From: Mesoterricola sediminis | GTDB lineage: Bacteria; Acidobacteriota; Holophagae; Holophagales; Holophagaceae | Length of the DNA stretch: 64,000 nucleotides | NCBI RefSeq assembly: GCF_030295425.1 | Contig: NZ_AP027081.1 | Coordinates: 558,001 to 622,000 of the forward strand | Reading direction: 5' to 3' | Shown here: positions 4,463-29,573 of the stretch, in pieces | How positions within the stretch are numbered: position 1 is the stretch's first letter | How the letters are laid out: the number at the start of each line of letters is the position of its first letter | The notes under the pieces: generated by a model | Database searches by the model: none | Told to the model about the DNA's origin: nothing | The model's input: the letters and a program-made list of their open reading frames with translations, nothing else | Made by a program: the position numbers and the translations under genes

Positions 4463-4470
4463 GTGGAGCC

Positions 4471-4839
4471 ATGGCCAGGACGATCATGATCATCGACGAT
4501 TCCGTGAGCCTGCGGCAGGTGGTGGGCATCGCCCTCGCCGGGGCGGGCTACGAGGTGATCGAGGCCTGCGACGGCCAGGACGCGCTGTCGAAGCTCACGG
4601 GCCAGAAGGTGCACCTGATGGTGTGCGACGTGAACATGCCCAACATGGACGGGATCACGTTCCTGAAGACGGTGCGGACGCTGCCGGCCTACAGATTCAC
4701 GCCGATCATCATGCTGACGACGGAAGCGGGCGAAGAGAAGAAGAAGGAGGGCCAGGCCGCGGGGGCGCGGGCCTGGGTGGTCAAGCCCTTCAAGCCCGAG
4801 CAGCTCCTGATGGCGGTTTCCAAACTCATCCTTCCCTGA
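4471..4839 (+). CDS. cheY: CheY-type single-domain response regulator (block A)
   Basis: A 122-residue stand-alone receiver. The acidic pocket is D9-D10 (IIDDS), the phosphoacceptor is D53 (VCDVNMP), the switch threonine is T83 (LTTEAG) and the conserved lysine is K105 (VVKPF). It should take phosphate from CheA and act as the output protein, at a flagellar motor or another machine such as type IV pili; no motor genes are in the window to decide. It sits 8 bases after the short receptor gene and 9 before the STAS gene, so co-transcribed. It differs from the block C copy at only three positions (R3/K, R75/K, E110/D), so the two CheY proteins are probably interchangeable. Confidence 0.93.
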   Translation: MARTIMIIDDSVSLRQVVGIALAGAGYEVIEACDGQDALSKLTGQKVHLMVCDVNMPNMDGITFLKTVRTLPAYRFTPIIMLTTEAGEEKKKEGQAAGARAWVVKPFKPEQLLMAVSKLILP

Positions 4840-4848
4840 GGTGTTGCC

Positions 4849-5166
4849 ATGCTGACGTTCACGCGGTCAGGTTCCACGCTCAAGCTCGAGGGCGAATTGA
4901 CCATTTTCGAGGCGGCCGAGGCCCGGGCGCGGCTCCGGGAGGAGCTGCGCCAGGCGCCCCTGGAGCTGGACCTGTCCGGGGTGGCGGAGGTGGACACCGC
5001 CGGCATCCAGGTCCTGCTCTGGCTCAAGCGGGAGGGCCAGGCCGCGGGGACCCCCGTGCCCTTCGGGAACCACAGCCCCGCGGTGGTGGAGGTCCTCGAC
5101 CTGCTGCGCCTGGCCGGGGCCTTCGGCGACACCCTCCTCCTCGCCCCCACCCAATCCCCTTCCTGA
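4849..5166 (+). CDS. STAS-domain protein in chemotaxis operon (block A)
   Basis: A 105-residue single STAS domain, the fold of anti-sigma-factor antagonists. The central DLSGVAEVDTAGIQ strand-loop-helix is diagnostic; a threonine (D-T-A-G) occupies the position where SpoIIAA-type proteins are phosphorylated. STAS proteins recur in chemotaxis operons; the small CheS protein of the Sinorhizobium che operon, reported to speed CheY1 dephosphorylation with CheA, is a possible functional parallel, but homology is not shown here. The gene lies tightly between cheY and cheA (9 and 10 bases). Compared with its neighbours it has diverged more from its block C copy (13 of 105 residues), so it may contribute to pathway insulation. 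Confidence 0.85.
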   Translation: MLTFTRSGSTLKLEGELTIFEAAEARARLREELRQAPLELDLSGVAEVDTAGIQVLLWLKREGQAAGTPVPFGNHSPAVVEVLDLLRLAGAFGDTLLLAPTQSPS

Positions 5167-5176
5167 GGACCGCGCC

Positions 5177-7333
5177 ATGGACATGGATCAGGTCAAGCAG
5201 ACGTTCATCACGGAGTGCCAGGAGCTCCTGGCGGCCATGGAGGAGGCCCTCCTGGGCCTCGAGGCGCAGCCGGACCCCGCCGAGTCCATCAACGCCATCT
5301 TCCGGGCGGTGCACACCATCAAGGGGTCGGCGGGCCTCTTCGGCCTGGATCCCATCGTGCGGTTCGCCCACGCGGTCGAGTCGGTCATGGACCGGGTGCG
5401 CGGGGGCCAGCTGGCCCTGGACGGCGACCTGGTGGGGCTCCTCCTGGCCTGCCACGATCACCTCGTGGTCCTCATCCAGGAGGGCACGGACGCCGAAGGG
5501 CAGCTCAGCCCGGAGCTCGGCGCGGAAGGGGACCGGCTTCTGGAGGCCCTGGTGCCCTGGCTGAAGGGGGAGGTGGCGACGGCGGCCATCCGGCCTGAAC
5601 CCACGGGCCATCCGGCCGCGGGCCGCGATCACTGGCACCTGTCGGTGCGCTTCGCCCCCACGGTGCTCCAGACGGGCATGGACCCCCTGTCCTTCGTGCG
5701 GTATCTGGGCACCCTGGGCCGGATGGTGCACATGCACGCCCTCCTGGAGGGGCTCCCCGCCGGGGAGGCCTTCGACCCGGAGCAGTGCTACCTGGGCCTG
5801 GAGATGGACCTGGAGACGGACGCCGACCGGAAGACCCTGGAGGACGTGTTCGAGTTCGTGCGGGAGGAGAGCCAGGTCCGGCTGATCCCGCCCCAGGCCA
5901 AGGTGGAGGCGTACCTGGCCCTGATCCGGGAGCTGCCCGACGAGGAGCACCTGCTGGGCGAGATCCTGGTGGCCGGGGGCTGCATCACCGAGTACGACCT
6001 GGCCGAGGCGCTGCGGGTGCAGCGGGAGGCGGAGGACGGCCGGAAGGTGGGGACGATCCTCGTGCAGGACCAGGACGTGCCGGCCCCCGTGGTGGCGGCG
6101 GCGCTGGAGAAGCAGAAGAAGGCCCAGGACCGCCAGGCCGGGGAGCTGAAGATCGTGAAGGTCTCGGCGGACAAGCTGGACAAGCTCGTGGACCTGGTGG
6201 GAGAGCTGGTGATCGCCGGGGCCAGCGCGCAGACCCGCGCGGCGGGGGCCCGGGACGGATCGCTGCTGGAGTCCCTGACGGTGGTGAACAAGCTCGTGGA
6301 GGAGATCCGGGACAACGCCCTGAGTCTGCGGATGGTGCAGATCGGGGAGACGTTCGCGCGGTTCCGGCGGGTGGTGCGGGACGTGTCGAAGGAGCTGGGC
6401 AAGGCCATCGACCTGGAGGTGCAGGGGGCCGAGACCGAGCTGGACAAGTCGATCGTGGAGAAGCTGGCGGACCCGCTGATGCACATCGTGCGGAACGCCA
6501 TCGACCACGGGATCGAGACGCTGGAGGTGCGTCGGGCGCGGGGGAAGCCGGATACGGGTTCGCTGGCGCTGAACGCGTTCCACGAGTCGGGGAGCATCGT
6601 CATCGAGGTGAGCGACGACGGCGGCGGCCTGGACCGGGCGCGGATCCTGCGGAAGGCCGTGGAGCGCGGGCTGGTGCAGGAGGGCGCGGAGCTGTCGGAC
6701 GCGGAGATCAACGCGATGATCTTCGAGCCGGGGTTCTCCACGGCGGCGGCGGTGACGAACCTGTCGGGCCGGGGCGTGGGCATGGACGTGGTGCGCCGGA
6801 ACATCGACGAGCTGCGGGGCACGGTCGAGGTGGAAAGCTACGAGGGCGCGGGCACGACGATCCGGCTGCGCCTGCCGCTGACCCTGGCCATCATCGACGG
6901 CTTCATGGTGACCGTCGGGGAGGCCACGTACGTGGTGCCCCTGGACATGATCATCGAGTGCCTGGACCTGGGCCCGTTCCTGGAGTCGGAGGAGAACCAC
7001 CTGATCAACCTGCGGGGCGAGGTGCTGCCCTTCCTGCGGCTGCGGGAGGTGCTGGGTTCGCCCGGGGAGCGCCCGGCGCGGGAGCGGGTGGTGGTGGTGC
7101 AGTTCGGGGAGACCCGGGCGGGCATCGTCGTGGACCGGCTGCTGGGAGAGTTCCAGACGGTCATCAAGCCGCTGGGGAGCCTGTTCCAGCACCTGCGGGG
7201 CGTGGGCGGGTCCACGATCCTGGGCTCGGGCAAGGTGGCCCTGGTCCTGGACGTGCCCGAACTGGTCCAGCTCGCCGTGGGCGGGCGCAGTCAGCCCGGC
7301 CGCATCCTCCCGGCCCTCGCCCAGGGCTCCTGA
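5177..7333 (+). CDS. cheA: chemotaxis histidine kinase CheA (block A)
   Basis: A 718-residue CheA. The P1 HPt domain carries H46 (AVHTIKGSAG). A P2-like segment spans about 145-245, from DHWHLSVRFAP. About 259-318 comes an insert with two tandem helical motifs (LGEILV...ITEYDLAEAL and VGTILV...VVAAALEKQ) resembling the MshEN/GspE N-terminal repeat. Then follow the dimerisation helices (DKLDKLVDLVGELVIA), the ATPase with N-box IVRNAIDHGIE, DDGGGLD and GRGVGMDVV, and a C-terminal CheW-like P5 domain. It autophosphorylates at receptor arrays and feeds CheY and CheB. It starts 10 bases after the STAS gene. From about residue 290 to 553 it is identical to CheA of block C, but the P1-P2 linker differs. 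Start ATG 5177 follows GGACC and is conserved in both copies. Confidence 0.94.
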   Translation: MDMDQVKQTFITECQELLAAMEEALLGLEAQPDPAESINAIFRAVHTIKGSAGLFGLDPIVRFAHAVESVMDRVRGGQLALDGDLVGLLLACHDHLVVLIQEGTDAEGQLSPELGAEGDRLLEALVPWLKGEVATAAIRPEPTGHPAAGRDHWHLSVRFAPTVLQTGMDPLSFVRYLGTLGRMVHMHALLEGLPAGEAFDPEQCYLGLEMDLETDADRKTLEDVFEFVREESQVRLIPPQAKVEAYLALIRELPDEEHLLGEILVAGGCITEYDLAEALRVQREAEDGRKVGTILVQDQDVPAPVVAAALEKQKKAQDRQAGELKIVKVSADKLDKLVDLVGELVIAGASAQTRAAGARDGSLLESLTVVNKLVEEIRDNALSLRMVQIGETFARFRRVVRDVSKELGKAIDLEVQGAETELDKSIVEKLADPLMHIVRNAIDHGIETLEVRRARGKPDTGSLALNAFHESGSIVIEVSDDGGGLDRARILRKAVERGLVQEGAELSDAEINAMIFEPGFSTAAAVTNLSGRGVGMDVVRRNIDELRGTVEVESYEGAGTTIRLRLPLTLAIIDGFMVTVGEATYVVPLDMIIECLDLGPFLESEENHLINLRGEVLPFLRLREVLGSPGERPARERVVVVQFGETRAGIVVDRLLGEFQTVIKPLGSLFQHLRGVGGSTILGSGKVALVLDVPELVQLAVGGRSQPGRILPALAQGS

Positions 7334-11738: not shown

Positions 11739-12284
11739 ATGGACGCACCCATGCGTCTGGACAAGCGGAGCCGGAGCCAGGCCGCCCAGGAGGCCTCGGT
11801 CCCGAAGACCCAGTACCTGGCCTTCGACCTGGGCGGCGAGGCCTTCGCGATGGAGATCCGGTTCATCAAGGAGGTGCTCCAGTACGGGGCCCTGACGGCG
11901 GTGCCCCTGATGCCGGCGTTCATCCGGGGGGTGATCAACCTCCGGGGCGCCGTGGTGCCCGTGGTGGACCTCTCGGTGCGCTTCGGGCGCCCCCCCACCG
12001 GGATCGCGCGGCGGACCTGCGTGGTGATCCTGGAGGTGCCCTCTCCGGAGGGGCCGGTGGAACTGGGGGTGATGGTGGACCACGTCAGCGAGGTCCTGGA
12101 CATCCCCGAGACCGACATCGACCCCGCCCCTGGCTTCGGGAGCGCGCTCCGCTCCGAGTTCCTCGCGGGCATCGGGAAGGTGGGGGGCCGGTTCGTCATC
12201 CTCCTGGACGTGGGCCACGTCCTCTCCATCGAGGAGATGGCGGCCCTGGCGGCACCCGGGGCGGAAGCCCCGGCCCTGGCCTGA
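11739..12284 (+). CDS. cheW: coupling protein CheW (block B)
   Basis: A 181-residue CheW, closely similar to the CheW of block A. It has FDLGGEAFAMEI, LPLMPxF-type and NLRGAVVPVVDLSVRFG core strands. ATG 11739 follows AAAGGAGG. It is the second gene of a receptor-cheW pair; a small hairpin CCGGG-TCCGT-CCCGG (11705-11719) lies in the 34-base gap before it. The stop is only 14 bases from the stop of the convergent SHOCT gene. Having three CheW copies with two CheA proteins suggests that arrays may be mixed or that each receptor unit brings its own coupler. Confidence 0.93.
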   Translation: MDAPMRLDKRSRSQAAQEASVPKTQYLAFDLGGEAFAMEIRFIKEVLQYGALTAVPLMPAFIRGVINLRGAVVPVVDLSVRFGRPPTGIARRTCVVILEVPSPEGPVELGVMVDHVSEVLDIPETDIDPAPGFGSALRSEFLAGIGKVGGRFVILLDVGHVLSIEEMAALAAPGAEAPALA

Positions 12285-13316: not shown

Positions 13317-14444
13317 GTGATTGCCGTCGCCAAGTCCATCCCGGAGGCCTTGGGCCGCGCAGGCCTGCCGGCCGTCGCCTTCCTGGCGCCCTGGGGGCTC
13401 TCGGGGTTCCGGTGGCCCGGTGCCTTAGCAGGCGTCCTGGCGGCCGGCTGCACCGTCGCCGCCCGGCGTTTCGCCACCCAGGCCCCCGCGGCCGGCGCCC
13501 CCCCGGCGCCCGTCCCGGAGGCCCCCGCGCCGGCGCCCGGGGCGGCCCCCCTGGCCCAGGTGGCCCAGGCCGTGGTGCCGGTGTGGGCGGGGCAGACCGC
13601 CGAGGCCCGGCAGCAGATGGAGGAGGCCATCCGGGGCCTGGCCTCGCGGTTCGCGGGCATGCACGGGGAGCTGCGCAAGGCCCTGGACACCTCGGGGCTG
13701 GAGAGCAACCGGGAGCTGCAGGGAATCATCGACCGGGGGTCGGAGGCCCTGGCGGGGGTGGTGCGGGACCTGGCGGAGGGGGCCCGGGCCCGGGCCGTGG
13801 TGCTGGAGAAGATCCGGGGGCTGGCGGCGATCACGGAGGAGCTGCGGGCCATGAGCGAGGAGGTGGCCTCCATCGCCAACCAGACCAACCTGCTGGCCCT
13901 GAACGCGGCCATCGAGGCGGCCCACGCCCGGGAGCTGGGGCGGGGCTTCGCGGTGGTGGCCGACGAGGTGCGCAAGCTCTCGGAGCGCTCGGGCACGACG
14001 GGCAACGCGATCACGACCAAGGTGGCGTGGGTGAACCAGTCGCTGCTGGAGACCCTGCGGGAGACGGAGGCCTTCGGGGACCGGGAGGCGGAGGTGATCC
14101 GCCGGGCGGAGGCGACCATCCACCGGGTGGTGGAGGACATCCAGGCCGGGGCGACGGACCTTTCGGGTTCGGCGCGGCGGTTCGAGGAGGCCGGGGAGGA
14201 CCTGGGCCGGGAGATCTCGGGGACGCTGGTGCACCTGCAGTTCCAGGACCGGGTCTCGCAGATCCTGCAGAGCGTGATCGCGGACATGGAGAAGTTCGCG
14301 GCGGAGGTCGCGGGGGGCGGGGCGCTGGACGCGGCCGCGTGGCTCCGGGACCTGGAGCGCACCTACACGACGCTGGAGCAGCTCGCCGTGCACCACGGCG
14401 AGGGCGCGGGGGCGTCCGACGAATCCGACATCACCTTCTTCTGA
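13317..14444 (+). CDS. short receptor-like chemotaxis protein with CheZ-like tail (block C copy)
   Basis: A 375-residue near-duplicate of the protein at 3335. After residue 20 the two differ at one position only (H262 versus R). Only the first 20 residues are unrelated in detail ([20 protein letters not shown] here). It has the same hydrophobic N-terminus, MCP hairpin tip, D-x3-Q motif in [11 protein letters not shown], and DESDITFF end. Start GTG 13317 follows TGGAG and yields exactly the length of copy 1; an upstream ATG at 13227 is in frame but would add 30 residues absent from the paralogue. It is 8 bases before cheY. Likely role: cytoplasm-facing member of the array and possible CheY-P phosphatase; the latter is inferred from the motif. 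Confidence 0.8.
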
Positions 14445-14452
14445 GTGGAGCC

Positions 14453-14821
14453 ATGGCCAAGACGATCATGATCATCGACGATTCCGTGAGCCTGCGGCAG
14501 GTGGTGGGCATCGCCCTCGCCGGGGCGGGCTACGAGGTGATCGAGGCCTGCGACGGCCAGGACGCGCTGTCGAAGCTCACGGGCCAGAAGGTGCACCTGA
14601 TGGTGTGCGACGTGAACATGCCCAACATGGACGGCATCACGTTCCTGAAGACGGTGCGGACGCTGCCGGCCTACAAATTCACGCCGATCATCATGCTGAC
14701 GACGGAAGCGGGCGAAGAGAAGAAGAAGGAGGGCCAGGCCGCGGGGGCGCGGGCCTGGGTGGTCAAGCCCTTCAAGCCCGACCAGCTCCTGATGGCGGTT
14801 TCCAAGCTCATCCTTCCCTGA
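14453..14821 (+). CDS. cheY: CheY-type single-domain response regulator (block C)
   Basis: A 122-residue receiver with the same pocket as the block A copy: D9-D10, phosphoacceptor D53, T83 and K105. It differs at three conservative positions (K3, K75, D110). It is 8 bases after the short receptor gene and 9 bases before the STAS gene. With such identity, cross-talk between both CheA kinases and both CheY proteins is expected unless they are expressed at different times. Confidence 0.93.
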   Translation: MAKTIMIIDDSVSLRQVVGIALAGAGYEVIEACDGQDALSKLTGQKVHLMVCDVNMPNMDGITFLKTVRTLPAYKFTPIIMLTTEAGEEKKKEGQAAGARAWVVKPFKPDQLLMAVSKLILP

Positions 14822-14830
14822 GGTGCGGCG

Positions 14831-15148
14831 ATGCTGACATTCATCCGTTCGGGGCCGGTGCTGAAGCTGGAGGGCGAGCTTACGATCTTCGAGGCGGGTG
14901 AGGCCCGGGCGCGGCTCCGGGAGGAGCTGCACCAGGCGCCCCTGGAGCTGGACCTGTCCGGGGTGACGGAGGTGGACACCGCCGGCATCCAGGTCCTGCT
15001 CTGGCTCAAGCGGGAAGGCAAGGCCGCGGGGACCCCCGTGCCCTTCGGGAACCACAGCCCCGCGGTGGTGGAGGTCCTGGACCTGCTCCACCTGACGGGG
15101 GCGTTCGGGGACACCCTCGTCATCGCGCCCACCTCCCACCCTTCCTGA
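14831..15148 (+). CDS. STAS-domain protein in chemotaxis operon (block C)
   Basis: A 105-residue STAS domain with the DLSGVTEVDTAGIQ core; it is the counterpart of the protein at 4849 with 13 substitutions, grouped near the N-terminus and in the last 20 residues. Given that cheY on one side is nearly unchanged between copies, this excess of changes is notable. It sits between cheY (9 bases) and cheA (10 bases). Its role in this cluster type is not established; binding to CheA or to CheY-P turnover is a reasonable guess. Confidence 0.85.
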   Translation: MLTFIRSGPVLKLEGELTIFEAGEARARLREELHQAPLELDLSGVTEVDTAGIQVLLWLKREGKAAGTPVPFGNHSPAVVEVLDLLHLTGAFGDTLVIAPTSHPS

Positions 15149-15158
15149 GGACCGCGCC

Positions 15159-17318
15159 ATGGACATGGATCAGGTCAAGCAGACGTTCATCGCGGAGTGC
15201 CGGGAACTCCTCGAGGCCATGGAGGAGGCCCTCCTGGGCCTCGAGGATCAGGCGGAGCCCGCCGAGTCCATCAACGCCATCTTCCGGGCGGTGCACACCA
15301 TCAAGGGGTCGGCGGGCCTGTTCGGCCTGGATCCCATCGTGCGGTTCGCCCACACGGTGGAGTCGGTCATGGACCGGGTGCGCGGCGGGCAGTTGGCGCT
15401 GGGGGGGGAGCTGGTGGGGCTGTTCCTGGCCTGCCACGATCACCTGGTGGCCCTCATCCAGGGCATCTCGGCCGGGGAGGCGGAACCCGAGGGACTCGCC
15501 GCCGAAGGGGACCGGCTCCTGGAGGCCCTCGTGCCCTGGCTGGAGGGCTCCGTGGCGACCCTGGCCGAACCGGTCCGGCCCGAGGTGGCGGCGCGCCCTG
15601 GCGGCACCCGGGACCACTGGCACCTGTCGGTGCGGTTCGCCCCCACGGTGCTGCAGCTGGGCATGGATCCCCTGTCCTTCGTGCGCTTCCTGGGCACCCT
15701 GGGCCGGATGGTGCACATGCACGCGATCCTGGACGGGCTCCCCGCCGGGGGGGCCTTCGACCCGGAGCAGTGCTACCTGGGCCTGGAGATGGACCTGGAG
15801 ACGGACGCCGACCGGAAGACCCTGGAGGACGTGTTCGAGTTCGTGCGGGAGGAGAGCCGGGTCCGGCTGATCCCGCCCCAGGCCAAGGTGGAGGAATACC
15901 TGGCCCTGATCCGGGAGCTGCCCGACGAGGAGCACCTGCTGGGCGAGATTCTGGTGGCCGGAGGCTGCATCACCGAGTACGACCTGGCCGAGGCGCTGCG
16001 GGTGCAGCGGGAGGAGGAGGACGGCCGGAAGGTGGGGACGATCCTCGTGCAGGACCAGGACGTGCCGGCCCCCGTGGTGGCGGCGGCGCTGGAGAAGCAG
16101 AAGAAGGCCCAGGACCGCCAGGCCGGGGAGCTGAAGATCGTGAAGGTCTCGGCGGACAAGCTGGACAAGCTGGTGGACCTGGTGGGGGAGCTGGTGATCG
16201 CCGGGGCCAGCGCGCAGACCCGCGCGGCGGGGGCCCGGGACGGATCGCTGCTGGAGTCCCTGACGGTGGTGAACAAGCTCGTGGAGGAGATCCGGGACAA
16301 CGCCCTGAGCCTGCGGATGGTGCAGATCGGGGAGACGTTCGCGCGGTTCCGGCGGGTGGTGCGGGACGTGTCGAAGGAGCTGGGCAAGGCCATCGACCTG
16401 GAGGTGCAGGGGGCCGAGACCGAGCTGGACAAGTCGATTGTGGAGAAGCTGGCGGACCCGCTGATGCACATCGTGCGGAACGCCATCGACCACGGGATCG
16501 AGACGCTGGAGGTGCGTCGGGCGCGGGGGAAGCCGGATACGGGTTCGCTGGCGCTGAACGCGTTCCACGAGTCGGGGAGCATCGTCATCGAGGTGAGCGA
16601 CGACGGCGGCGGCCTGGACCGGGCGCGGATCCTGCGGAAGGCCGTGGAGCGCGGGCTGGTGCAGGAGGGCGCGGAGCTGTCGGACGCGGAGATCAACGCG
16701 ATGATCTTCGAGCCGGGGTTCTCCACGGCGGCGGCGGTGACGAACCTGTCGGGCCGGGGCGTGGGCATGGACGTGGTGCGCCGGAACATCGACGAGCTGC
16801 GGGGCACGATCGAGGTGGAGAGCTACGAGGGCGCGGGCACGACGATCCGGCTGCGCCTGCCGCTGACCCTGGCCATCATCGACGGCTTCATGGTGGGGGT
16901 GGGCGACACGACGTACGTGGTGCCCCTGGACATGATCATCGAGTGCCTGGACCTGGGCCCGTTCCTGGAGTCGGAGGAGAACCATCTGATCAACCTGCGG
17001 GGCGAGGTGCTGCCCTTCCTGCGGCTGCGGGAGGTGCTGGGTTCGCCCGGGGAGCGCCCGGCGCGGGAGCGGGTGGTGGTGGTGCAGTTCGGGGAGACCC
17101 GGGCGGGCATCGTCGTGGACCGGCTGCTGGGCGAATTCCAGACCGTCATCAAGCCGCTGGGGAGCCTGTTCCAGCACCTGCGGGGCGTGGGCGGGTCCAC
17201 GATCCTGGGCTCGGGCAGGGTGGCCCTGGTCCTGGACGTGCCCCAGCTGGTCCAGCTCGCCTCCGAATCGCGCGCGCACCCGGGCCGGGACCTGCCGGCC
17301 CTCTCCACCAACCGCTGA
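15159..17318 (+). CDS. cheA: chemotaxis histidine kinase CheA (block C)
   Basis: A 719-residue CheA with the same domain order as the block A copy: P1 with H46, P2-like segment, the two-motif MshEN-like insert, dimerisation helices, ATPase (IVRNAIDHGIE, DDGGGLD, GRGVGMDVV) and P5. From about residue 290 to 553 the two proteins are identical, and the DNA is nearly so. Differences cluster at about residues 12-22, 80-150 (the P1-P2 linker, one residue longer here), at RGTIEV and GVGDTTYV in the ATPase/P5 border, and at the extreme C-terminus. This kinase is in the operon that carries cheR, cheB and cheD, so it is the better candidate for the adapting pathway. The receptor gene follows 24 bases later. 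Confidence 0.94.
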   Translation: MDMDQVKQTFIAECRELLEAMEEALLGLEDQAEPAESINAIFRAVHTIKGSAGLFGLDPIVRFAHTVESVMDRVRGGQLALGGELVGLFLACHDHLVALIQGISAGEAEPEGLAAEGDRLLEALVPWLEGSVATLAEPVRPEVAARPGGTRDHWHLSVRFAPTVLQLGMDPLSFVRFLGTLGRMVHMHAILDGLPAGGAFDPEQCYLGLEMDLETDADRKTLEDVFEFVREESRVRLIPPQAKVEEYLALIRELPDEEHLLGEILVAGGCITEYDLAEALRVQREEEDGRKVGTILVQDQDVPAPVVAAALEKQKKAQDRQAGELKIVKVSADKLDKLVDLVGELVIAGASAQTRAAGARDGSLLESLTVVNKLVEEIRDNALSLRMVQIGETFARFRRVVRDVSKELGKAIDLEVQGAETELDKSIVEKLADPLMHIVRNAIDHGIETLEVRRARGKPDTGSLALNAFHESGSIVIEVSDDGGGLDRARILRKAVERGLVQEGAELSDAEINAMIFEPGFSTAAAVTNLSGRGVGMDVVRRNIDELRGTIEVESYEGAGTTIRLRLPLTLAIIDGFMVGVGDTTYVVPLDMIIECLDLGPFLESEENHLINLRGEVLPFLRLREVLGSPGERPARERVVVVQFGETRAGIVVDRLLGEFQTVIKPLGSLFQHLRGVGGSTILGSGRVALVLDVPQLVQLASESRAHPGRDLPALSTNR

Positions 17319-20600: not shown

Positions 20601-20631
20601 ATCCCGTGTGAGAATGTGGAGGGAGGATGCC

Positions 20632-21177
20632 ATGGCCGAAGCCATGCGGCTGGACAAGCGGAACAGGGCCCAGGCGAACCGGGTCCAGGCGGAGCAGAAG
20701 GCCCAGTACCTCGCCTTCAACCTGGGCGGCGAGGCCTTCGCCATGGAGATCCGGTCCATCAAGGAGGTGATCCAGTACGGGACCCTCACCGAGGTGCCCC
20801 TGATGCCGGAGTTCATCCGGGGGGTGATCAACCTGCGGGGCGCCGTCGTGCCGGTGATCGACCTGTCCGTGCGGTTCAACCGGCCCCCCACCGAGGTGGC
20901 GCGGCGCACCTGCGTGGTGATCCTGGAGGTGCCCTGCCAGGGGGATGTGGTGGAGCTGGGGGTGATCGTGGACCACGTCAGCGAGGTGCTGGACATCGGC
21001 CCCTCCGAGATCGAGCCCGCTCCCGCCTTCGGCAGCTCCCTCCGATCCGATTTCATCGCGGGGGTGGGGAAGGTGGGCGGCAAGTTCGTCATCATCCTGG
21101 ATGTGGCCCACGTGCTCTCCATCGATGAAATGGCCGCCCTCGCCGCCGGAACGGGCGGGGAGGGACCCGCCGCGTGA
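20632..21177 (+). CDS. cheW: coupling protein CheW (block C)
   Basis: A 181-residue CheW with FNLGGEAFAMEI, IQYGTLTEVPLMPEFIRG and NLRGAVVPVIDLSVRFN core motifs. It is somewhat more divergent than the other two CheW proteins, for example RFN in place of RFG. Start ATG 20632 follows GGAGGGAGGA; an in-frame ATG 24 bases upstream would place that site inside the gene, so it was not used. The stop overlaps the cheR start (GTGA, 21174-21177), which implies translational coupling with the adaptation genes. Confidence 0.93.
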   Translation: MAEAMRLDKRNRAQANRVQAEQKAQYLAFNLGGEAFAMEIRSIKEVIQYGTLTEVPLMPEFIRGVINLRGAVVPVIDLSVRFNRPPTEVARRTCVVILEVPCQGDVVELGVIVDHVSEVLDIGPSEIEPAPAFGSSLRSDFIAGVGKVGGKFVIILDVAHVLSIDEMAALAAGTGGEGPAA

Positions 21178-22013
21178 GCCGCCCCCTGCCGCTCCCGGGG
21201 CTGACGCAGCCCGCCCCGGCCATCACGGACGCGGAGTTCGCGCGGTTCCGCGCGATGGTGAAGGACCTGACGGGCATCAACCTGTCCGACCAGAAGAAGG
21301 CCCTGGTGACGGGGCGGCTCGGCAGCCGCCTCCGCCACCGGGGCGCCGCCACGTTCGGGGACTACTACAAGCTGATCCGGGACCCGTCCGAGACGCAGGA
21401 ACTGCAGACCGCCATCGACCTCCTGACCACCAACGAGACGTATTTCTTCCGGGAGCCCGAGCACTTCGAGATCCTGGCCAACCACATCCGGTCGCTCCGG
21501 CCGGTGCCGCTCCCCTTCCGGGTCTGGAGCGCCGCGAGCTCGAGCGGGGAGGAGGCGTACAGCCTGGCCATGGTCCTGGCCGACACCCTGGGCAGCGGCG
21601 AGTGGTCGGTCCTGGGGACCGACATCAGCACCCGGGTGCTGGAGCGGGCCCGCCGGGCCCTCTATCCCATGGAGCGGGCCACCGGGATCCCCCAGGCCCA
21701 CCTCCGGGCCCACTGCCTCAAGGGCCAGGGCCAGCACGAGGGGATGCTCCTGGTGAGCAAGGCCCTGCGGGCCAAGGTCTCCTTCGCCCAGGCCAACCTC
21801 ATGAAGACCCTGCCGAAGCTGGGCCCCTTCGATGTCGCCTTCCTTCGGAACGTGCTCATCTACTTCGAACCAGCCGAGAAACTCAAGGCGGTGGAGACGG
21901 TCGCGGCCCAGATCAAGCCCGGGGGCCTCCTCTTCGTCGGCCACTCCGAGAGCCTCACGGGCCTCGATCACGGGCTCAAGCCCCTTCGTCCGACGGTGTA
22001 CCGTGTCCCCTGA
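21174..22013 (+). CDS. cheR: chemotaxis receptor methyltransferase CheR
   Basis: A 279-residue enzyme that transfers methyl groups from S-adenosylmethionine to receptor glutamates. The N-terminal helical domain has [17 protein letters not shown] and [12 protein letters not shown]; the SAM domain has [23 protein letters not shown] and [13 protein letters not shown], ending VGHSESL. All are normal CheR signatures. The start is GTG 21174, overlapping the cheW stop by four bases; no separate ribosome-binding site is needed. It is the only CheR in the window, so it should serve receptors from all blocks. The next gene, cheB, overlaps its 3' end by 11 bases. Confidence 0.94.
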
Positions 22014-23064
22014 ATCCGCCCCCGTCAAGGTGTTCATCGTCGACGACTCCGCGGTCGTCAGGCAGGCCCTGTCCGAGATCCTCGGCAAGGACCGGGGCAT
22101 CCGCGTGATCGGCCACGCCATGGATCCGCTCTTCGCCCTGGAGCGGATGGAGAAGGACTGGCCCGACGTGATCGTGCTGGACGTGGAGATGCCGCGCATG
22201 GACGGCATCACCTTCCTGCGGAAGATCATGGCCGAGCGCCCCACCCCCGTGATCATCTGCTCCTCCCTGACGGGGAAGGGGGCCGAGACGACCCTCCAGG
22301 CCATGGCGGCCGGGGCCTTCGCCATATTCACCAAGCCGACCCTGGGCGTGAAGTCCTTCCTGGAGGACGCCTCCAACGACCTGACCCAGGCGGTCCGCGC
22401 CGCGAGGGCGGCCCGCGCGGCCAAGCTCATCCGGCCCGCGCCGCCCAAGCTCGGCGCGGACGCGGTCCTGGCCGCGGCCTCCGGGTCCGAGGCGATGGCC
22501 GTCACGACGGACCGGTTCACGGCGATCGGGACCTCCACCGGGGGGACCCAGGCCCTGGAATACGTCCTCGCCGCCCTGCCCCGGACCTGCCCCGGCATCG
22601 TCGTCGTCCAGCACATGCCCGAGAAGTTCACGGCGGCCTTCGCCCAGCGCCTGGACCGGATCTGCGAGATCGAAGTGAAGGAGGCGGTGACCGGGGACCG
22701 GGTGCTGCCCGGCCGGGCCATCATCGCCCCCGGCGGCCGCCACCTCGTGGTCCGCAGGAGCGGGGCCCAGTACCAGGTCGAGGTGGTCTCCGCGCCGCCC
22801 GTGAACCGGCACTGCCCCTCCGTGGACGTGCTCTTCCGCTCCGTGGCCAAGTTCGCGGGCCGCAATGCCCGGGGCGTCATCATGACCGGCATGGGCGACG
22901 ACGGGGCCCGCGGCCTCCTGGAGATGCGCCAGGCCGGGGCCCAGACCTTCGCCCAGGACGAGGAGAGCTGCGTGGTCTTCGGCATGCCCAAGGAGGCCAT
23001 CCGCATGGGCGCCGCCGACCGGGTCGTGTCCCTCTCCCAGATCCCCGAACTCATTGCTCGCTGA
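22003..23064 (+). CDS. cheB: receptor methylesterase/deamidase response regulator CheB
   Basis: A 353-residue protein that removes receptor methyl groups when phosphorylated. The receiver has FIVDDSA (D14, D15) and phosphoacceptor D60 in [10 protein letters not shown]; a short alanine-rich linker joins the catalytic domain. The catalytic triad is S in GTSTGG (about 178), H in QHMPEKF (about 203) and D in MGDDGARG (about 298). Start GTG 22003 overlaps the end of cheR by 11 bases; other in-frame GTG codons a little downstream (for example before FIVDDS) would trim the receiver strand. The next gene starts 8 bases after the stop. Substrate receptors are presumably those with DER-F-x-x-F tails. 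Confidence 0.93.
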
Positions 23065-23071
23065 GGCTTTC

Positions 23072-24301
23072 ATGGACGCACGCGAACGGGTCCTCATCAT
23101 CGACGACGACGGGGACCTGCGGGCCGCCCTGGCGGAGTACCTGCGGGGCATGGGCCTGGACGTCCTCGAGGCCGCCGATGGCGAATCGGGCCTGGAGGCG
23201 GTGCGCGCCCACGCCCCGGCCCTCGTCCTGCTGGACCTGACGATGCCGGGGATGGACGGCTACGTGGTCTGCCGCGCCATCCGGGCGATGCCGGGCGCGG
23301 AGCGCACCGCGGTGGTCGTCATCACGGGGCTCGCGGGCACCGACCTCGCCCTGCGGGCCTTCGACAGCGGGGCCGTGGACTTCATCACCAAGCCCTTCCA
23401 CCTCCAGGAGGTGAGGGCCCGGGTCCGGACCCACCTGGAAGCCCGGCGGCGGGGCGTCGCCCTCGAGGAGAAGGGCCTGAGCCTGGAGAAGGCCTTCTCG
23501 GAGGCGGCGGCCATGAACCGCAGCCTCCTGACCCTCAACGACAAGCTCCGGAAGTCGGAGGCGCTGAAGGACCGGTTCCTCTCCCTCATGCGCAACGAGA
23601 TCAACAACCCGCTCAACGACATCATCGGCCTGGCCGACCGCATCCTGGACCCGGCCCTGGATCCGGCCCGGGGCCGGGAGCTGGCGCGCCTGGTGCGCAT
23701 GGAGGCGACCCGGCTGGACTTCCAGATCCGCAACGTCTTCTGCGCCGCGGAACTGGAGGCCGGGCAGGCCCGGCCCACCGTGTCCCGCGTGGACGTGGCC
23801 TCCGTGGCCCGGGACGTGGCCGATTCGTGCTCCCGCGCGGCCGGCTCCCAGCACCCGGAGGTGCGGGTCTCCGCGGAGGAGGCGCACTTCGACACCGACG
23901 GCGGCATGGTCCACCTGATCCTCGCGGACCTGGTGGCCAATGCCGCCCTCCGCTCGGGGCCGGCGGGGCAGGTGGAGGTCTCCGTCGCCGTGACCGGGGG
24001 CCAGCTCCGGATCCGGGTGGCGGATTCGGGTCCGGCCCTGGAGGAGCAGGCCCGCCAGGACCTCTTCCGGGGCTTCGGGGGCGGGGACGGGAGCGGCCTC
24101 GCCGCGCCGGGCCTCGGCCTGATCCTGCCCGTCGTGAAGGCGCTCGCGGACCTCCTGGACGGCTCCGTGTCCGCGGAGAACCTGCCCGGCGGCGGCGCGG
24201 CCTTCGAGGTGCGGCTCCCCCCCGGGACCTTCCTGGACCACATGGACGCCGAATCCATGGACGGCAACCTCCTCATCTTCGACGATCCCCAGGCGTTCTG
24301 A
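23072..24301 (+). CDS. receiver domain fused to a histidine-less kinase-like module
   Basis: A 409-residue protein between cheB and cheD. The N-terminal receiver is intact: DDD at 11-13, phosphoacceptor D55 (LLDLTMP), T and K (FITKPF) in place. A coiled linker leads to a HisKA-like helix, but where kinases have S-H-E-(I/L)-R-x-P this reads R-N-E-I-N-N-P: N175 replaces the phosphoacceptor histidine. The ATPase part is also eroded: the N-box reads LVANAAL and the G1 box DSGPAL lacks its last glycine, while a GLGL remains. It is therefore a receiver-driven signalling protein unlikely to phosphorylate itself, perhaps a scaffold or regulator of CheA or CheB. Start ATG 23072 keeps an 8-base gap after cheB; its stop overlaps the cheD start by one base. 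Confidence 0.85.
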   Translation: MDARERVLIIDDDGDLRAALAEYLRGMGLDVLEAADGESGLEAVRAHAPALVLLDLTMPGMDGYVVCRAIRAMPGAERTAVVVITGLAGTDLALRAFDSGAVDFITKPFHLQEVRARVRTHLEARRRGVALEEKGLSLEKAFSEAAAMNRSLLTLNDKLRKSEALKDRFLSLMRNEINNPLNDIIGLADRILDPALDPARGRELARLVRMEATRLDFQIRNVFCAAELEAGQARPTVSRVDVASVARDVADSCSRAAGSQHPEVRVSAEEAHFDTDGGMVHLILADLVANAALRSGPAGQVEVSVAVTGGQLRIRVADSGPALEEQARQDLFRGFGGGDGSGLAAPGLGLILPVVKALADLLDGSVSAENLPGGGAAFEVRLPPGTFLDHMDAESMDGNLLIFDDPQAF

Positions 24302-24819
24302 TGGCCGGTCCGACCTCTGGAGGGCCTCCCGGCCACTACCTCTACCCGTGCATGCTCTTCGCCCACCGCGAGGAGCACCTGGTCACGACCGTCCTCGGCT
24401 CCTGCGTGGCGGTGTGCCTCGTGGATCCGCGGATGGGGGCGGGGGGGATGAACCACTACATGCTGGCCCTCTGGAACGGCGACGGCCTCGCCACCCCCAA
24501 GTACGGCAGCGTGGCCATCCCGGGCCTGGTCCGGCGCATGCTGGACATGGGCTGCGCCCGGGAGCGCCTGGTGGCCAAGGTCTTCGGGGGGGCCAACGTG
24601 ATCGGCGACGGGAACGGGGTCTTCACGGTGGGCTACCGGAACATCGAGGTGGCCACGGCCCTGCTGGCGGAAGAGGGCATCCCCATCACCGCCCGGGATG
24701 TGGGCGGGGATTTCGGCCGGAAGCTGATCCTCAACACCCGCACGGGCTCCGTCCTGGTCTCCCGGCTCAAGCGCGCCGACGGGGGCCCCGTGGCCCTCCC
24801 CGACGGCCGGCCCCGGTAG
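24301..24819 (+). CDS. cheD: receptor glutamine deamidase CheD
   Basis: A 172-residue CheD, which deamidates receptor glutamines and in some bacteria works with CheC. The catalytic cysteine is C35 in LGSCVAVCL and the histidine H52 in GGMNHYML; the following KVFGGANVIG and RDVGGDFGRKL motifs are typical. ATG 24301 shares its first base with the preceding stop (TGATG). It is the last gene of block C; no CheC or CheX gene is present in the window, so CheY-P removal must come from elsewhere, possibly the short CheZ-like receptors. Confidence 0.93.
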   Translation: MAGPTSGGPPGHYLYPCMLFAHREEHLVTTVLGSCVAVCLVDPRMGAGGMNHYMLALWNGDGLATPKYGSVAIPGLVRRMLDMGCARERLVAKVFGGANVIGDGNGVFTVGYRNIEVATALLAEEGIPITARDVGGDFGRKLILNTRTGSVLVSRLKRADGGPVALPDGRPR

Positions 24820-24836: not shown

Positions 24837-27800
24837 ATGGACGGACAGACCGAGTGGATCCGGCTCCGGGGCGCGGCGGAGCACAACCTCCAGGACGTGG
24901 ACGTGCGCGTCCCCCGCGGGCGCCTCACCGTGGTGACGGGCGTCTCCGGCTCCGGGAAGTCCTCCCTGGCCTTCGGCACGCTCTTCCGGGAGGGGCAGCG
25001 GCGCTTCCTGGAGACGCTGCCGTCCTTCAGCCGCCAGTTCATGGGGCGCCTGTCCCGGCCCGCCTTCGCCAGCCTGGAGGGGATCGGGCCCGCCGTGGCC
25101 TCGGGCCAGCGCGCGGGGCTCGCCAACCCCCGGTCCACGGTGGGCACCCTCACGGAGGTCTGGGACCTGCTGCGCCTCCTCTTCGCGCGGCTGGGGGAGA
25201 CGCCCGACGGGACCCGCCTGTCCCGGGGGGCCTTCTCCTTCAACGGGGAAGGGGCCTGCCCCCGCTGCGCCGGCCTGGGGGTGGAGGACGCGCTGGACCC
25301 GGACCTCCTGGTGAAGGACCCGGCCCTCTCGCTGCGCCAGGGCGCGCTCCACGTGAGCACGCCCAACGGCTACCTCATGTACTCCCAGGTCACCCTGGAC
25401 GTCCTGGACCAGGTGCTCCGGGCCCACGGCGGCTCCGTGGACATCCCCTGGGGGGACCTGGCCGGGGAGGCCCGGACCGTGGTCCTGGAGGGGTCCACCC
25501 GCCTGAAGGTGCCCTACGGCAAGCATCCCCTGGAATCCCGCCTCAAGTGGACGGGGATCACCGCCCGCCCCCGCCAGGAGGGCCACTACCGGGGGCTCCT
25601 CCCGGTCATGGAGGAGATCCTCCGGGGCAAGCGCAACGATTCGATCCTGCGCTACGTGCGGACCACGGCCTGCTCCGCCTGCGGGGGGCTGCGCCTCGCC
25701 CCGGCGCCCCTGGCCGCGCGCTGGCGGGGCCGCGGCATCGCCGAGCTGGCCGCGCTCACCGCGGAGGACCTGGGCCGCTTCCTGGCGGACCTGCCGGCGG
25801 GGCCGGACGCGCCGGTGCTGGAGCCCATCCGGCGGGACCTGGCCGCCCGGACCGCCCTCCTGGAGGAGCTGGGCCTGGGCTACCTGACCTTCGACCGCGC
25901 CGCCCCCACCCTCTCCCCCGGCGAGGCCCAGCGCCTGCGCCTGCTGGGCCTGGCCCTGGGCGAGCTGCGGGGCCTCCTGGTGGTCCTGGACGAGCCCTCC
26001 GCGGGGCTCCACCCCGCGGACGCGCACCGCCTCCTGGGGGTGCTGCGGCGCCTGCGGGACCAGGGCCAGACCGTCGTGGTGGTGGAGCACGACGGGCTCA
26101 TCGTGCGGGGGGCGGACTGGATCATCGACCTGGGCCCCGGCCCCGGGGCGGCGGGAGGGCGGGTGCTGCACTGCGGACCGCCGGAGGCCCTCCTGGGGCC
26201 CGGGGAACCCACGCCCACCCGGGCCTGGCTGGCGGCGCCCGAGGCGCCCCCCCGCAAGGTCCGGGCGGGGCGGCGGCTGGCCTTCGGGGACCTGCGCCGC
26301 CACAACCTGCAGGGCGTGGCGGTGGAGCTGGTGGAGGGCGGCCTCAACGTCGTCACCGGCGTCTCCGGCGCCGGGAAGACCTCCCTCCTGGACGAGCTGG
26401 CCGGGCGCCTCGGCTCCCGGGGCCTCCTGAAGGTGGACGCGGCCCCCATCGGGCGCACCCCGCGGTCCAACCCCGCCACCTACACCGGCGCCTTCGACCT
26501 GGTGCGCAACCTCTTCGCGGGGACCCCGGAGGCGAAGGCCCGGGGCCTGGGCAAGGGCCACTTCACCTTCAACACGCCCGGGGGCCGGTGCGAGGCCTGC
26601 GAGGGGGCCGGGGCGGTGGAGGTGGGCATGAAGCACCTCGGGGCCGTGCTGGTGCCGTGCGAGGCCTGCGGGGGGCGGCGCTTCCACCCGGAGGTGCTGG
26701 AGGTGGCCTGGCGGGGCCGCTCCGTCGCGGACGTGCTGGACGCCAGCGTGGACGAGGCCCTGGACCTCTTCGCGGACCAGCCCCGCCTGGCGCGCATCCT
26801 CCGGGCCCTGGCCGACTGCGGCCTGGGCCACCTGGCCCTGGGCCAGCCCGCGCCCACCCTCTCCGGGGGCGAGGCCCAGCGGGTGAAGCTCGCGGCGGAG
26901 CTGGCCCGCGCGGGGAAGGGGACCTCCTTCATCGTGCTGGACGAGCCCACCACGGGCCTCCACGGGGCCGACGTCCAGGTGCTCCTGGACGCCTGGGACC
27001 GCCTCCTGGCCGAAGGGCACACCCTCCTGGCCGCCGACAACGATCCCGCCGTCATCCGCCGGGCCGACCACGTCGTCGACCTGGGGCCGGGCAGCGGCCC
27101 CCGGGGCGGACGGGTGGTGGTCGCCGGTCCCCCGGACGCGGTGGCCGCTTGCCCCGCCTCCCGCACCGGCGAGGCCCTGCGGGGGCTGGACGTGCCCCCT
27201 CCCGCGCCGCCCCCGGCGGGGCCCGAGCCCCCCCTCGTCCTGGAGGGCGTGGCCACCCACAACCTCCAGGGCGTGGACGCGGCCTTCCCCGCCACGGGCC
27301 TCACCGTGGTCACCGGGCCGTCCGGGTCCGGCAAGTCCAGCCTCGTGTTCGACACCCTCCTGGCCGAATGCCGGAACCGGTTCACGGACCTGGTCTCCCC
27401 CTGGGCCCGGCGGCTGCTGGCCCGGCCCGGCGGAGCCGTCTTCGCCCGGGCCCGGGACCTCCGGGCCGCGGTGGCCGTGTCCCAGGCCCAGGGCCGGCGC
27501 AACCCCCGGTCCCGGGTGGGCACGGTGGCGGAGCTGGACGAGCGGCTCCGCATGCTCTTCGCCCGGGCCTCGGGGACGGGCCTGCCCGCCTCCGCTTTCT
27601 CCCCCAACACGGAGCGGGGGGCCTGCCGCCACTGCCGGGGCCTGGGCTTCATCCAGACCTGCGACCCCGAGCGCCTCGTCACCCACCCCGACCGGCCCCT
27701 GGGGAGCGGCGCCCTGGCGGGCACCCGTTTCGGGGCCTACCTGGAGGAGCCGGATGGCCGGTTCATGGCCACCCTCGCCGCCGCCGCCCGGGAGCTGGGC

Positions 27801-29573
27801 CTCGCCGTGGACCTCCCCTGGCGGGACCTGGCGCCCGGGGCCCGGGACCTGGCCCTGCGGGGCGGCGGCGACCGCACCTTCCAGGTGGACTGGGCCTACC
27901 GGCGCGGGGCGCGGGAGGGCGTCCACCGCCTGGAGACCCCCTGGGAGGGCTTCGCGGCCCTCGTGGACGCGGAGTACGAGCGCGTCCACGCCGAGGGCAA
28001 GGGCGCGTCCCTGGAGGCCCTGATGGCGGACCTCCCCTGTCCGGCCTGCGCCGGGTCCCGCCTGGGCCCCGAGGGGGCCGCGGCCCAGGTCCAGGGCCGG
28101 CGGTTGCCGGAGGTGCTGGGCTGGCCCGTGTCGCGCCTGGCGGCGTGGCTGGAGGGGCTCCCTCCGGAGGGCCCCGCGGGGCTGCTGGCCGCCGACCTCC
28201 TGCCGCGCCTGCGGGCCCTGGAGGCGGCCGGCCTGGGCCACCTGGCCCCGGACCGGGAGATGGCCACCCTCTCGGGCGGCGAGGCCCAGCGGCTGCGCCT
28301 GGCCTCGGCCCTCCACGCCGGACTCTGGGGCGTGGTCTACGTGCTGGACGAGCCCACCCGGGGCCTGCACCCCGCGGACACGGCCCGTCTGCTCGACGTC
28401 CTCCGGCCCCTGGCGGCCCGCAACGCCGTGGTCGTGGTGGAGCACGACCCGGCCGTCATCGCGGCGGCCGGCACCCGCATCCACCTGGGCCCCGGCGCCG
28501 GCGCGGCGGGGGGCCGCCGGGTGGCGCCCGGTCCCGGCGCGCCGCCCCCCGCGCGGACGCCGCGTCCCGGCGGGCCCGCCGTCCGGGTGCGGGGCGCCCG
28601 GCTCAACACCCTGAAGGCCGTGGACGCGACCTTCCCCTCCGGCTGCATCGTCGCCGTGACGGGCGTCAGCGGCAGCGGCAAGTCCTCCCTGGTGCGGGGC
28701 GTCCTGGGGGCCTCCCTGGAAGCGGCCCTCCGGGGCCGGGGCCCCGTCGGCTGCGAGGCCCTGGAGCAGGACCTGCCCCTGGCCCGGGTGCGCGTCCTGG
28801 ACCAGCTGGGCGCGGGCCCCGGCGCCCTGGCCACGGTGGCCACCGCCGCCGGCATCGCGGACCCCCTCCGCAAGGCCCTGGCCGCCACCCCCGAGGCCCG
28901 GGCCCTCAAGCTCACCGCCCGGGCCTTCTCCACCGCCGCCCCCGGGGGGCGCTGCGAGGCCTGCGAGGGCCGCGGCCACCTGACCGTGCCCATGGACCTC
29001 CTGCCCGACGTGGAAGTGGGCTGCGAGGCCTGCGGCGGCCTGGGGTTCCAGGGGCCCGTCCTCACCTGCCGCCTGGGTGGGTGGACGATCGTCGAGTGGC
29101 TGGCGGCCACCGTGGACGCGGCCCTGGCCGCCGCGCCTCCGGCCGGCCTGCGGGCCCCCCTGGCCGCCCTGGCCGGCGCGGGGCTCGGCTACCTGCGCCT
29201 CGGGCAGGCCGCGGGCACCCTGTCCGGCGGGGAATGGCAGCGGCTCCGCCTGGCCGAGCTCCTCGCGGACGCGGACCCCCGGCCCGCTGCCCTCCTCCTG
29301 GATGAGCCGGGCCGGGGCCTGGGCCGCGCGGAACTCGCGCCCCTGGTGGCCTCCCTGGATCGCCTGGCGGCCCAGGGCCACCTGGTGGTCCTGGTGGAGC
29401 ATCACCTGGACCTCATCCGCGCCGCCGACTGGGTCCTGGACCTGGGCCCCGGCGGGGGGCCGGAGGGCGGAACCCTGGTCTTCACCGGCACCCCCGCCCA
29501 GCTCGCCGCGGCCCCCACCCCCACGGGCGCCGCCCTCCGGGCCCACGCGGCGGCCGCCGCCCCCCAGGATTGA
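24837..29573 (+). CDS. double-length UvrA-like protein with four ABC ATPase modules
   Basis: A 1578-residue protein, against about 940 for ordinary UvrA. It is two fused UvrA-like halves (about 1-790 and 800-1578). Four Walker A motifs are seen: near K41 (GVSGSGKSS), 513 (GVSGAGKTS), 834 (GPSGSGKSS) and 1281 (GVSGSGKSS). Four signature motifs follow: LSPGEAQRL, LSGGEAQRV, LSGGEAQRL, LSGGEWQRL. Zinc-binding CxxC pairs are kept (CPRCAGLG, CEACEGAG, CRHCRGLG, CEACEGRG). The segment after NPRSTVGT...LLFARLG goes straight to FSFNGEGACPRC, so the UvrB-binding domain of canonical UvrA is missing. This matches what is known as class III UvrA, whose role (damage tolerance or antibiotic resistance) is not settled. 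A TAGAAT near 24825 may be its -10; it starts 18 bases after cheD. Confidence 0.9.
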   Translation: MDGQTEWIRLRGAAEHNLQDVDVRVPRGRLTVVTGVSGSGKSSLAFGTLFREGQRRFLETLPSFSRQFMGRLSRPAFASLEGIGPAVASGQRAGLANPRSTVGTLTEVWDLLRLLFARLGETPDGTRLSRGAFSFNGEGACPRCAGLGVEDALDPDLLVKDPALSLRQGALHVSTPNGYLMYSQVTLDVLDQVLRAHGGSVDIPWGDLAGEARTVVLEGSTRLKVPYGKHPLESRLKWTGITARPRQEGHYRGLLPVMEEILRGKRNDSILRYVRTTACSACGGLRLAPAPLAARWRGRGIAELAALTAEDLGRFLADLPAGPDAPVLEPIRRDLAARTALLEELGLGYLTFDRAAPTLSPGEAQRLRLLGLALGELRGLLVVLDEPSAGLHPADAHRLLGVLRRLRDQGQTVVVVEHDGLIVRGADWIIDLGPGPGAAGGRVLHCGPPEALLGPGEPTPTRAWLAAPEAPPRKVRAGRRLAFGDLRRHNLQGVAVELVEGGLNVVTGVSGAGKTSLLDELAGRLGSRGLLKVDAAPIGRTPRSNPATYTGAFDLVRNLFAGTPEAKARGLGKGHFTFNTPGGRCEACEGAGAVEVGMKHLGAVLVPCEACGGRRFHPEVLEVAWRGRSVADVLDASVDEALDLFADQPRLARILRALADCGLGHLALGQPAPTLSGGEAQRVKLAAELARAGKGTSFIVLDEPTTGLHGADVQVLLDAWDRLLAEGHTLLAADNDPAVIRRADHVVDLGPGSGPRGGRVVVAGPPDAVAACPASRTGEALRGLDVPPPAPPPAGPEPPLVLEGVATHNLQGVDAAFPATGLTVVTGPSGSGKSSLVFDTLLAECRNRFTDLVSPWARRLLARPGGAVFARARDLRAAVAVSQAQGRRNPRSRVGTVAELDERLRMLFARASGTGLPASAFSPNTERGACRHCRGLGFIQTCDPERLVTHPDRPLGSGALAGTRFGAYLEEPDGRFMATLAAAARELGLAVDLPWRDLAPGARDLALRGGGDRTFQVDWAYRRGAREGVHRLETPWEGFAALVDAEYERVHAEGKGASLEALMADLPCPACAGSRLGPEGAAAQVQGRRLPEVLGWPVSRLAAWLEGLPPEGPAGLLAADLLPRLRALEAAGLGHLAPDREMATLSGGEAQRLRLASALHAGLWGVVYVLDEPTRGLHPADTARLLDVLRPLAARNAVVVVEHDPAVIAAAGTRIHLGPGAGAAGGRRVAPGPGAPPPARTPRPGGPAVRVRGARLNTLKAVDATFPSGCIVAVTGVSGSGKSSLVRGVLGASLEAALRGRGPVGCEALEQDLPLARVRVLDQLGAGPGALATVATAAGIADPLRKALAATPEARALKLTARAFSTAAPGGRCEACEGRGHLTVPMDLLPDVEVGCEACGGLGFQGPVLTCRLGGWTIVEWLAATVDAALAAAPPAGLRAPLAALAGAGLGYLRLGQAAGTLSGGEWQRLRLAELLADADPRPAALLLDEPGRGLGRAELAPLVASLDRLAAQGHLVVLVEHHLDLIRAADWVLDLGPGGGPEGGTLVFTGTPAQLAAAPTPTGAALRAHAAAAAPQD

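Follow-up and report, generated by a model that had tools for sequence, protein, structure and literature searches.

Kinases under receiver control, kinases without the histidine and a CheD that is controlled by phosphorylation are already known singly. LvrB of Leptospira (PDB 8vc9) has the domain order receiver-DHp-CA and is described as autophosphorylating on H161 and phosphorylating LvrC; once its receiver is phosphorylated, its signalling helices are reported to come together as a coiled coil and the catalytic domains to be freed (PMC13269768). DivL of Caulobacter (PDB 4q20) carries Tyr550 in place of the acceptor, and its His-less kinase core is described as inactive both as a kinase and as a phosphatase and as reused to sense the phospho-receiver DivK~P (PMC4211667). 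Another Caulobacter protein, CCNA_03265, is reported to keep the receiver Asp, to have a kinase part without histidine and to affect motility (PMC11481889). Such proteins are rare: in the survey described in PMC12632262, HisKA domains without His made up 0.9% (722 of 76,471).

For CheD, the described precedent is the CheC/CheD/CheY~P system of Bacillus subtilis, where a CheD partner is proposed to read the phosphorylation of the pathway. There CheC is reported to bind CheD with a more than seven-fold higher affinity when CheY~P is present, and CheY~P was proposed to draw CheD off the receptors (PMC3513319).

Here we analyse a gene, named pK, from the window, i.e., the whole 64,000-nucleotide stretch of Mesoterricola sediminis DNA under study, which belongs to a genome of 4.52 Mb in a single contig. 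A preliminary description had presented its product as a pseudokinase gated by a receiver and encoded in an adaptation operon, and anatomy, conservation and phylogeny support this well. The novelty that it also suggested holds in part: LvrB and DivL are precedents for receiver control and for the missing histidine, while the linkage to CheD in a co-inherited two-gene module is new. The accessible texts on DivL (PMC4211667) and CCNA_03265 (PMC11481889) report no link to CheD or cheD, and DivL differs further in its N-terminal PAS domains and its role in cell-fate control. Our search of open-licence papers returned nothing relevant on a pseudokinase linked to CheD or encoded in a che operon. PMC13064192 describes the genomes of a related soil genus.

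Genomic organisation of the locus

The local gene order is cheA, two receptors, cheW, cheR, cheB, pK and cheD (Table 1). The cheA of this run was recognised from its translated ORF and from a copy that is almost identical to it, and the cheB start was taken from the translated frame, at a putative start codon. Since only 7 bases separate the cheB stop from the pK start, and the pK stop and the cheD start codon share one base (TGATG), pK is probably co-translated with the neighbouring genes. A scan for promoters and terminators gave no signal beyond chance.

Table 1. Features of the adaptation gene run and of pK (positions in the window)
Feature	Position	Strand	Basis
cheW, start of the local adaptation gene run	20608-21177	+	Pfam CheW, 127.9 bits
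cheR, methyltransferase	21174-22013	+	Pfam CheR, 174.2 bits
cheB, methylesterase with receiver	22027-23064	+	Pfam CheB_methylest, 224 bits; Response_reg, 80.6 bits
pK, receiver-controlled pseudo-histidine kinase, 409 aa	23072-24301	+	ORF, Pfam, sequence
pK receiver domain, residues 7-119	23090-23428	+	Pfam Response_reg, 93.4 bits
pK one long helix, residues 111-191	23402-23644	+	AlphaFold model
pK HisKA-like DHp helices, residues 166-232	23567-23767	+	Pfam HisKA, sub-threshold
pK N175 codon AAC, at the phosphoacceptor-histidine position	23594-23596	+	sequence
pK N179, the +4 position on which HisKA kinases depend for phosphatase activity	23606-23608	+	sequence; as described in PMC3510030
pK HATPase_c, residues 279-384	23906-24223	+	Pfam, 60.4 bits (cut-off 26.4)
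pK C-terminal tail, residues 397-409, DGNLLIFDDPQAF	24260-24298	+	conserved, predicted disordered
cheD	24301-24819	+	Pfam CheD, 96.4 bits

A block of about 3.9 kb (MCP-like protein, CheY and CheA) is doubled in the window in direct orientation with 95.5% identity (3369-7276 and 13351-17261), and cheW likewise occurs in two copies (11739-12284 and 20608-21177); cheR, cheB, pK and cheD are seen solely behind the second copy of the 3.9-kb duplication. A UvrA-like protein of 1578 aa (24837-29573) begins 17 bases past cheD. It contains several UvrA stretches, is of double length and partially matches the 1809-aa NCBIfam model PRK00635; a similar UvrA-like start also lies downstream of cheD in the locus L139.

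The C-terminal pentapeptide of receptors tethers CheR and CheB, and the pattern xFxxF resembles that pentapeptide. Three receptors of the window, ending at 9092, 11704 and 20571, terminate in EFTNF, SFTNF and DFARF, respectively; the receptor ending at 18920 is without xFxxF.

Structure of the pK protein

The protein consists of a receiver, a signalling helix, HisKA-like helices, a HATPase domain and a short C-terminal tail. The receiver is intact, as previously claimed on the strength of D55, with D11, D12, D55 and K107 all found. In the predicted structure (ColabFold, 20 sequences; mean pLDDT 80.9, pTM 0.56), the long helix links receiver alpha5 via the signalling helix to DHp helix 1. pK thus has the anatomy of the LvrB type, in which a helix connects DHp-CA with an N-terminal receiver whose Asp can be phosphorylated, and that of a DivL-type pseudo-histidine kinase, with the kinase core retained and the acceptor histidine replaced. 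In a Foldseek search with the model, LvrB was the top hit across the whole protein, followed by DivL, which matched the core. The overall TM-score with LvrB is low (about 0.3), perhaps owing to a different domain placement, and the DHp-CA fold of DivL gives a TM of 0.82 by target length with 29% identity.

The segment 23582-23620 encodes residues 171-183, in which N175 stands in place of the histidine, as the preliminary description had read it, and is followed by E176, I177, N178, N179 and P180. A substitute histidine nearby, named there as grounds for abandoning the idea, was looked for in residues 152-240, which contain zero histidines; there is therefore no shifted acceptor on those helices, and autokinase activity is not expected. 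The Pfam HisKA match (residues 166-223) scores 23.0 bits, below the cut-off of 26.9, which the pK of one relative (G064) passes with 35.7 bits. The pK motif NEINNP aligns position by position with the HEIKNP described for HisKA kinases of the CrdS/NtrB type, including the +4 N; pK differs from these kinases in lacking the acceptor histidine and in having an N-terminal receiver in place of other sensors. E176 and N179 make up an E/DxxT/N phosphatase motif adjoining the acceptor position, and for a CheC/CheX domain no Pfam match was found in pK up to E 10.

The ATPase boxes had been called eroded, which is correct for the window copy and does not extend to the family. Three positions are altered in the window pK (N286D, G322A and G351I; N290, D318, G320, G349 and L350 are retained), and the same positions are intact in the other seven members, which show NLxxNA, DxGxG or DxGxx (first Gly and the second Gly or an equivalent; DNGIGL in G086) and GxGLGL. 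The erosion is private to the window copy and no family trait. Together with a HATPase_c score below those of three scanned relatives (85.6, 87.4 and 97.8 bits), these changes indicate that ATP binding may be weak in the window pK and retained in its relatives.

Mean pairwise identity across the family is 0.60 in the DHp, 0.55 in the tail, 0.50 in the receiver, 0.46 in the linker and 0.44 in the HATPase domain. Although the histidine is lost, no other domain is as well conserved as the DHp, and in a dead kinase this makes it most likely, to judge from the sequences, that the DHp helices still serve as a docking site for a receiver or some other partner. The tail follows the consensus [ND]-hydrophobic-hydrophobic-[IF]F[DE]xPxx[FL]-end and is conserved through the last residue. 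In the ColabFold model, pLDDT is below 50 for residues 335-348 (the ATP-lid region) and 388-409; such a low value in a tail of 0.55 identity suggests a peptide that may fold on a partner.

We considered whether the tail is a shared receptor tether and rejected this reading: F-D-x-P-x-x-F-stop occurs once in the window genome, at pK alone (with 1 control hit), and three receptors of the window end in the differing xFxxF. Receptor-like CheD recognition sites follow the pattern [AS]xx[QE][QE]xx[AS], which was found in 0/8 pK proteins scanned.

Distribution and phylogeny

A profile built from 8 sequences found 8 members in 77 genomes of the family, scoring 616-682 bits with the next match at 242.5 (up to 23 candidates scored per genome), and 5 members in 396 genomes of the phylum, scoring 616-677 bits with the next match at 268 (4 candidates scored per genome); the profile sets the family clearly apart. 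Among the genomes searched, the 8 orthologues occur in Holophagaceae only; absence beyond this family is weakly tested because an exact-peptide search from one sequence overlooked three known members (G014, G064 and G086). The frames are open over the full length in 8/8 genomes, with 37-50% protein identity to the window pK, and D55 is invariant.

The acceptor site is N in six of the eight members (G000, G001, G002, G004, G005 and G086), G in G014 and H in G064 (MRHEINNP). The adjacent E (E176) is retained in 6/8 members, and the +4 N (N179) in 7/8, with D in G086. Further losses are seen in the G014 copy (L133:5028-8663), where H->G is accompanied by adjacent E->V and receiver K107->R. All 54 related non-family receiver-kinases inspected (55 aligned rows) retain the histidine, which was read directly in 52 of the 55 rows and located by eye as the H-box in the misaligned rows L010, L013 and L152. 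With N in six independent genomes and His in all 54 relatives, N175 is neither a sequencing error nor due to chance.

When 24 receiver-kinases from outside were included in the tree, the family came out as a single clade (100/100). Within it, one branch joins G014 and G064 (97/89), and the other holds the six members with N (100/99). The window pK has a long branch, and its row was flagged for unusual composition. As every outside sequence has His, the simplest history has two losses, H->N once and H->G in G014; the histidine was thus lost at least twice.

Association with CheD

pK lies directly upstream of cheD in 8/8 genomes. The six N-bearing copies share the order cheR-cheB-pK-cheD, so the neighbourhood noted in the preliminary description recurs in 6/8, and G014 and G064 fall outside it. 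In G064, the pK-cheD pair is flanked on both sides by a gene for a receiver-bearing histidine kinase and lies 6 kb away from a cheR-cheD-cheB group; in G014, it adjoins oppositely oriented CheY-like, CheC and kinase genes, and neither cheB nor cheA was detected beside it. CheA or CheB, earlier proposed as the regulated partner, gains no specific support, and the association surviving across genomes is that with CheD.

The eight pK-linked CheDs form a single clade (95/92; 97% of 200 bootstrap trees). None of the 37 other CheDs in the tree (0/37) has pK as a neighbour; in most cases they adjoin either cheR and cheB or cheA together with a receiver and a GAF-like gene. This tree holds 45 distinct sequences from 49 listed matches, with identical ends merged and not every place included, and the Desulfonema row L052 was removed beforehand. 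In G003, of the same genus, neither a pK nor a CheD match was found. pK and its CheD thus stay paired even where the pair has been relocated; of all clues to function, this is the strongest.

Discussion

In these soil-type bacteria, the constant adjacency to cheD suggests that pK is now a phosphorylation-sensing partner of CheD and not a kinase. We tentatively favour, at somewhat less than even chances, the explanation that it is a receiver-controlled pseudo-histidine kinase and the dedicated partner of one CheD lineage, which would sense CheA-derived phosphorylation and control CheD. The phosphorylation would be read by pK's own receiver, and a receiver of the CheY or CheB type docked on the DHp helices may be a second reader. 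The phospho-state would be relayed along the long signalling helix, and the changed conformation would expose or hide a surface that binds CheD, for which the conserved C-terminal tail is a candidate. pK would in this way set the amount of CheD free for the chemoreceptors, comparable to the role of CheC with CheY~P in Bacillus subtilis, although CheC has another fold (Pfam CheC/CheX). CheA as the phosphate source, the physical binding of CheD, the role of the tail and the direction of the effect are steps that we infer.

The observations behind this explanation are the absent acceptor His, the intact receiver, the conserved DHp and tail, the strict co-inheritance with one CheD clade and, in the predicted structure, the long receiver-to-DHp helix. 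It is favoured because the histidine is lost across the clade (N, G or H at the site) and never in the 54 relatives; because pK adjoins cheD everywhere, always in one CheD clade and beside none of the others, with G003 lacking both; because the best conserved domain is the DHp, as expected for a retained docking surface; because the conserved tail of low pLDDT suggests a peptide folding on a partner; and because the LvrB, DivL and CheC/CheD precedents fit. Against it, gene adjacency in sequence data is no proof of contact, the receptor-type CheD recognition pattern is absent from 8/8 pK proteins, K107 is R in G014, and there are 8 members only, from a single bacterial family. Furthermore, one CheX, with a weak CheC match at the same place, is encoded elsewhere in the window genome, far from pK, so that this genome does not lack a CheC-like protein or phosphatase, and the CheC gene near the G014 pair means that pK is no simple CheC substitute in that genome. 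Replacement of CheC or CheX by pK, in this simple form, was rejected on these two observations.

An extended form of the CheD-partner explanation appears doubtful as a whole: an adaptation switch of a new make, in which CheD would be under a receiver-gated pseudo-histidine kinase, not CheC, CheA phosphate would be sensed twice (by pK's own receiver and by a phospho-receiver on the dead DHp), CheD would be caught or freed via the C-terminal tail, and the loss of the histidine would have accompanied the move from a stand-alone pair to the position between cheB and cheD.

The main rival, which we consider unlikely, is a histidine-free phosphatase: the DHp would remove the phosphate from a receiver, be it CheY~P, CheB~P or some other one, pK's own receiver would be the switch, and the CheD link would couple adaptation to signal termination. 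Residues for kinase activity have been lost (His in 7/8, the adjacent E in 2/8) and the phosphatase-only +4 N kept in 7/8, which is the pattern that such a phosphatase would show, and an NtrB H139N protein reportedly retains phosphatase activity. In CrdS, the histidine is described as dispensable for most phosphatase activity and the +4 N as essential, the E adjacent to His mattering for the kinase only (PMC3510030); the authors of the LvrB study propose that its symmetric state is phosphatase-active (PMC13269768). However, G086 has D at +4, a CheX is already present elsewhere in the window genome, PleC H610A is described as having lost phosphatase as well, and DivL is described as neither kinase nor phosphatase (PMC4211667). 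The survey remarks that missing histidines are not commoner where they are least needed for phosphatase activity (PMC12632262). The three altered ATP-box positions of the window pK also speak against a phosphatase, an objection limited by the report that the DHp of NtrB or EnvZ alone retains some phosphatase activity (PMC3510030).

The same ATP boxes bear on a pairing in which pK would form a heterodimer with an active kinase or serve it as an in-trans ATPase, its own histidine being unneeded. Their integrity in 7/8 members, the place of the G064 pK between two other receiver-bearing histidine kinase genes and the pseudokinase-kinase heterodimers described for ChrS/HrrS (PMC9491836) are consistent with pairing, but the boxes are damaged in the window pK, 6/8 copies lie in che clusters, and the kinase seen nearby in the window is CheA, which has no HisKA match; we regard pairing as improbable. 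The long branch and the extra ATP-box losses of the window pK might instead mark a decaying relic carried along with cheD. This reading was already disfavoured and is very improbable in view of the full-length frames (8/8, at 37-50% identity), the DHp as the best conserved domain, the invariant D55 and a tail conserved to its end. That pK is a conventional, active kinase whose acceptor histidine has shifted has hardly any likelihood at all, since residues 152-240 of the window pK are without histidine, even though G064 retains one in MRHEINNP.

To our knowledge, few His-less HisKA domains have an assigned job, and pK brings a named likely partner, CheD. Its family separates kinase from phosphatase residues precisely, and the G064 relative with its histidine provides a natural before-and-after comparison. 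If pK controls CheD, chemotaxis adaptation would possess a second phosphorylation-dependent CheD switch besides CheC.

Candidates for a divergent pK beside CheD in G060, G062, G063 and G066 were rejected, because a lone receiver (4/4) and a separate gene with GAF-like matches (checked against Pfam in L127 alone) were found there. In L127:3722-5055, and likewise in L126, L128 and L129, another CheD lineage lies between the weak-GAF gene and cheA, with the lone receiver upstream, and this is possibly another CheD-partner arrangement. A tandem pair of cheD genes is located between cheR and cheB in L132:4824-5833 (G017).
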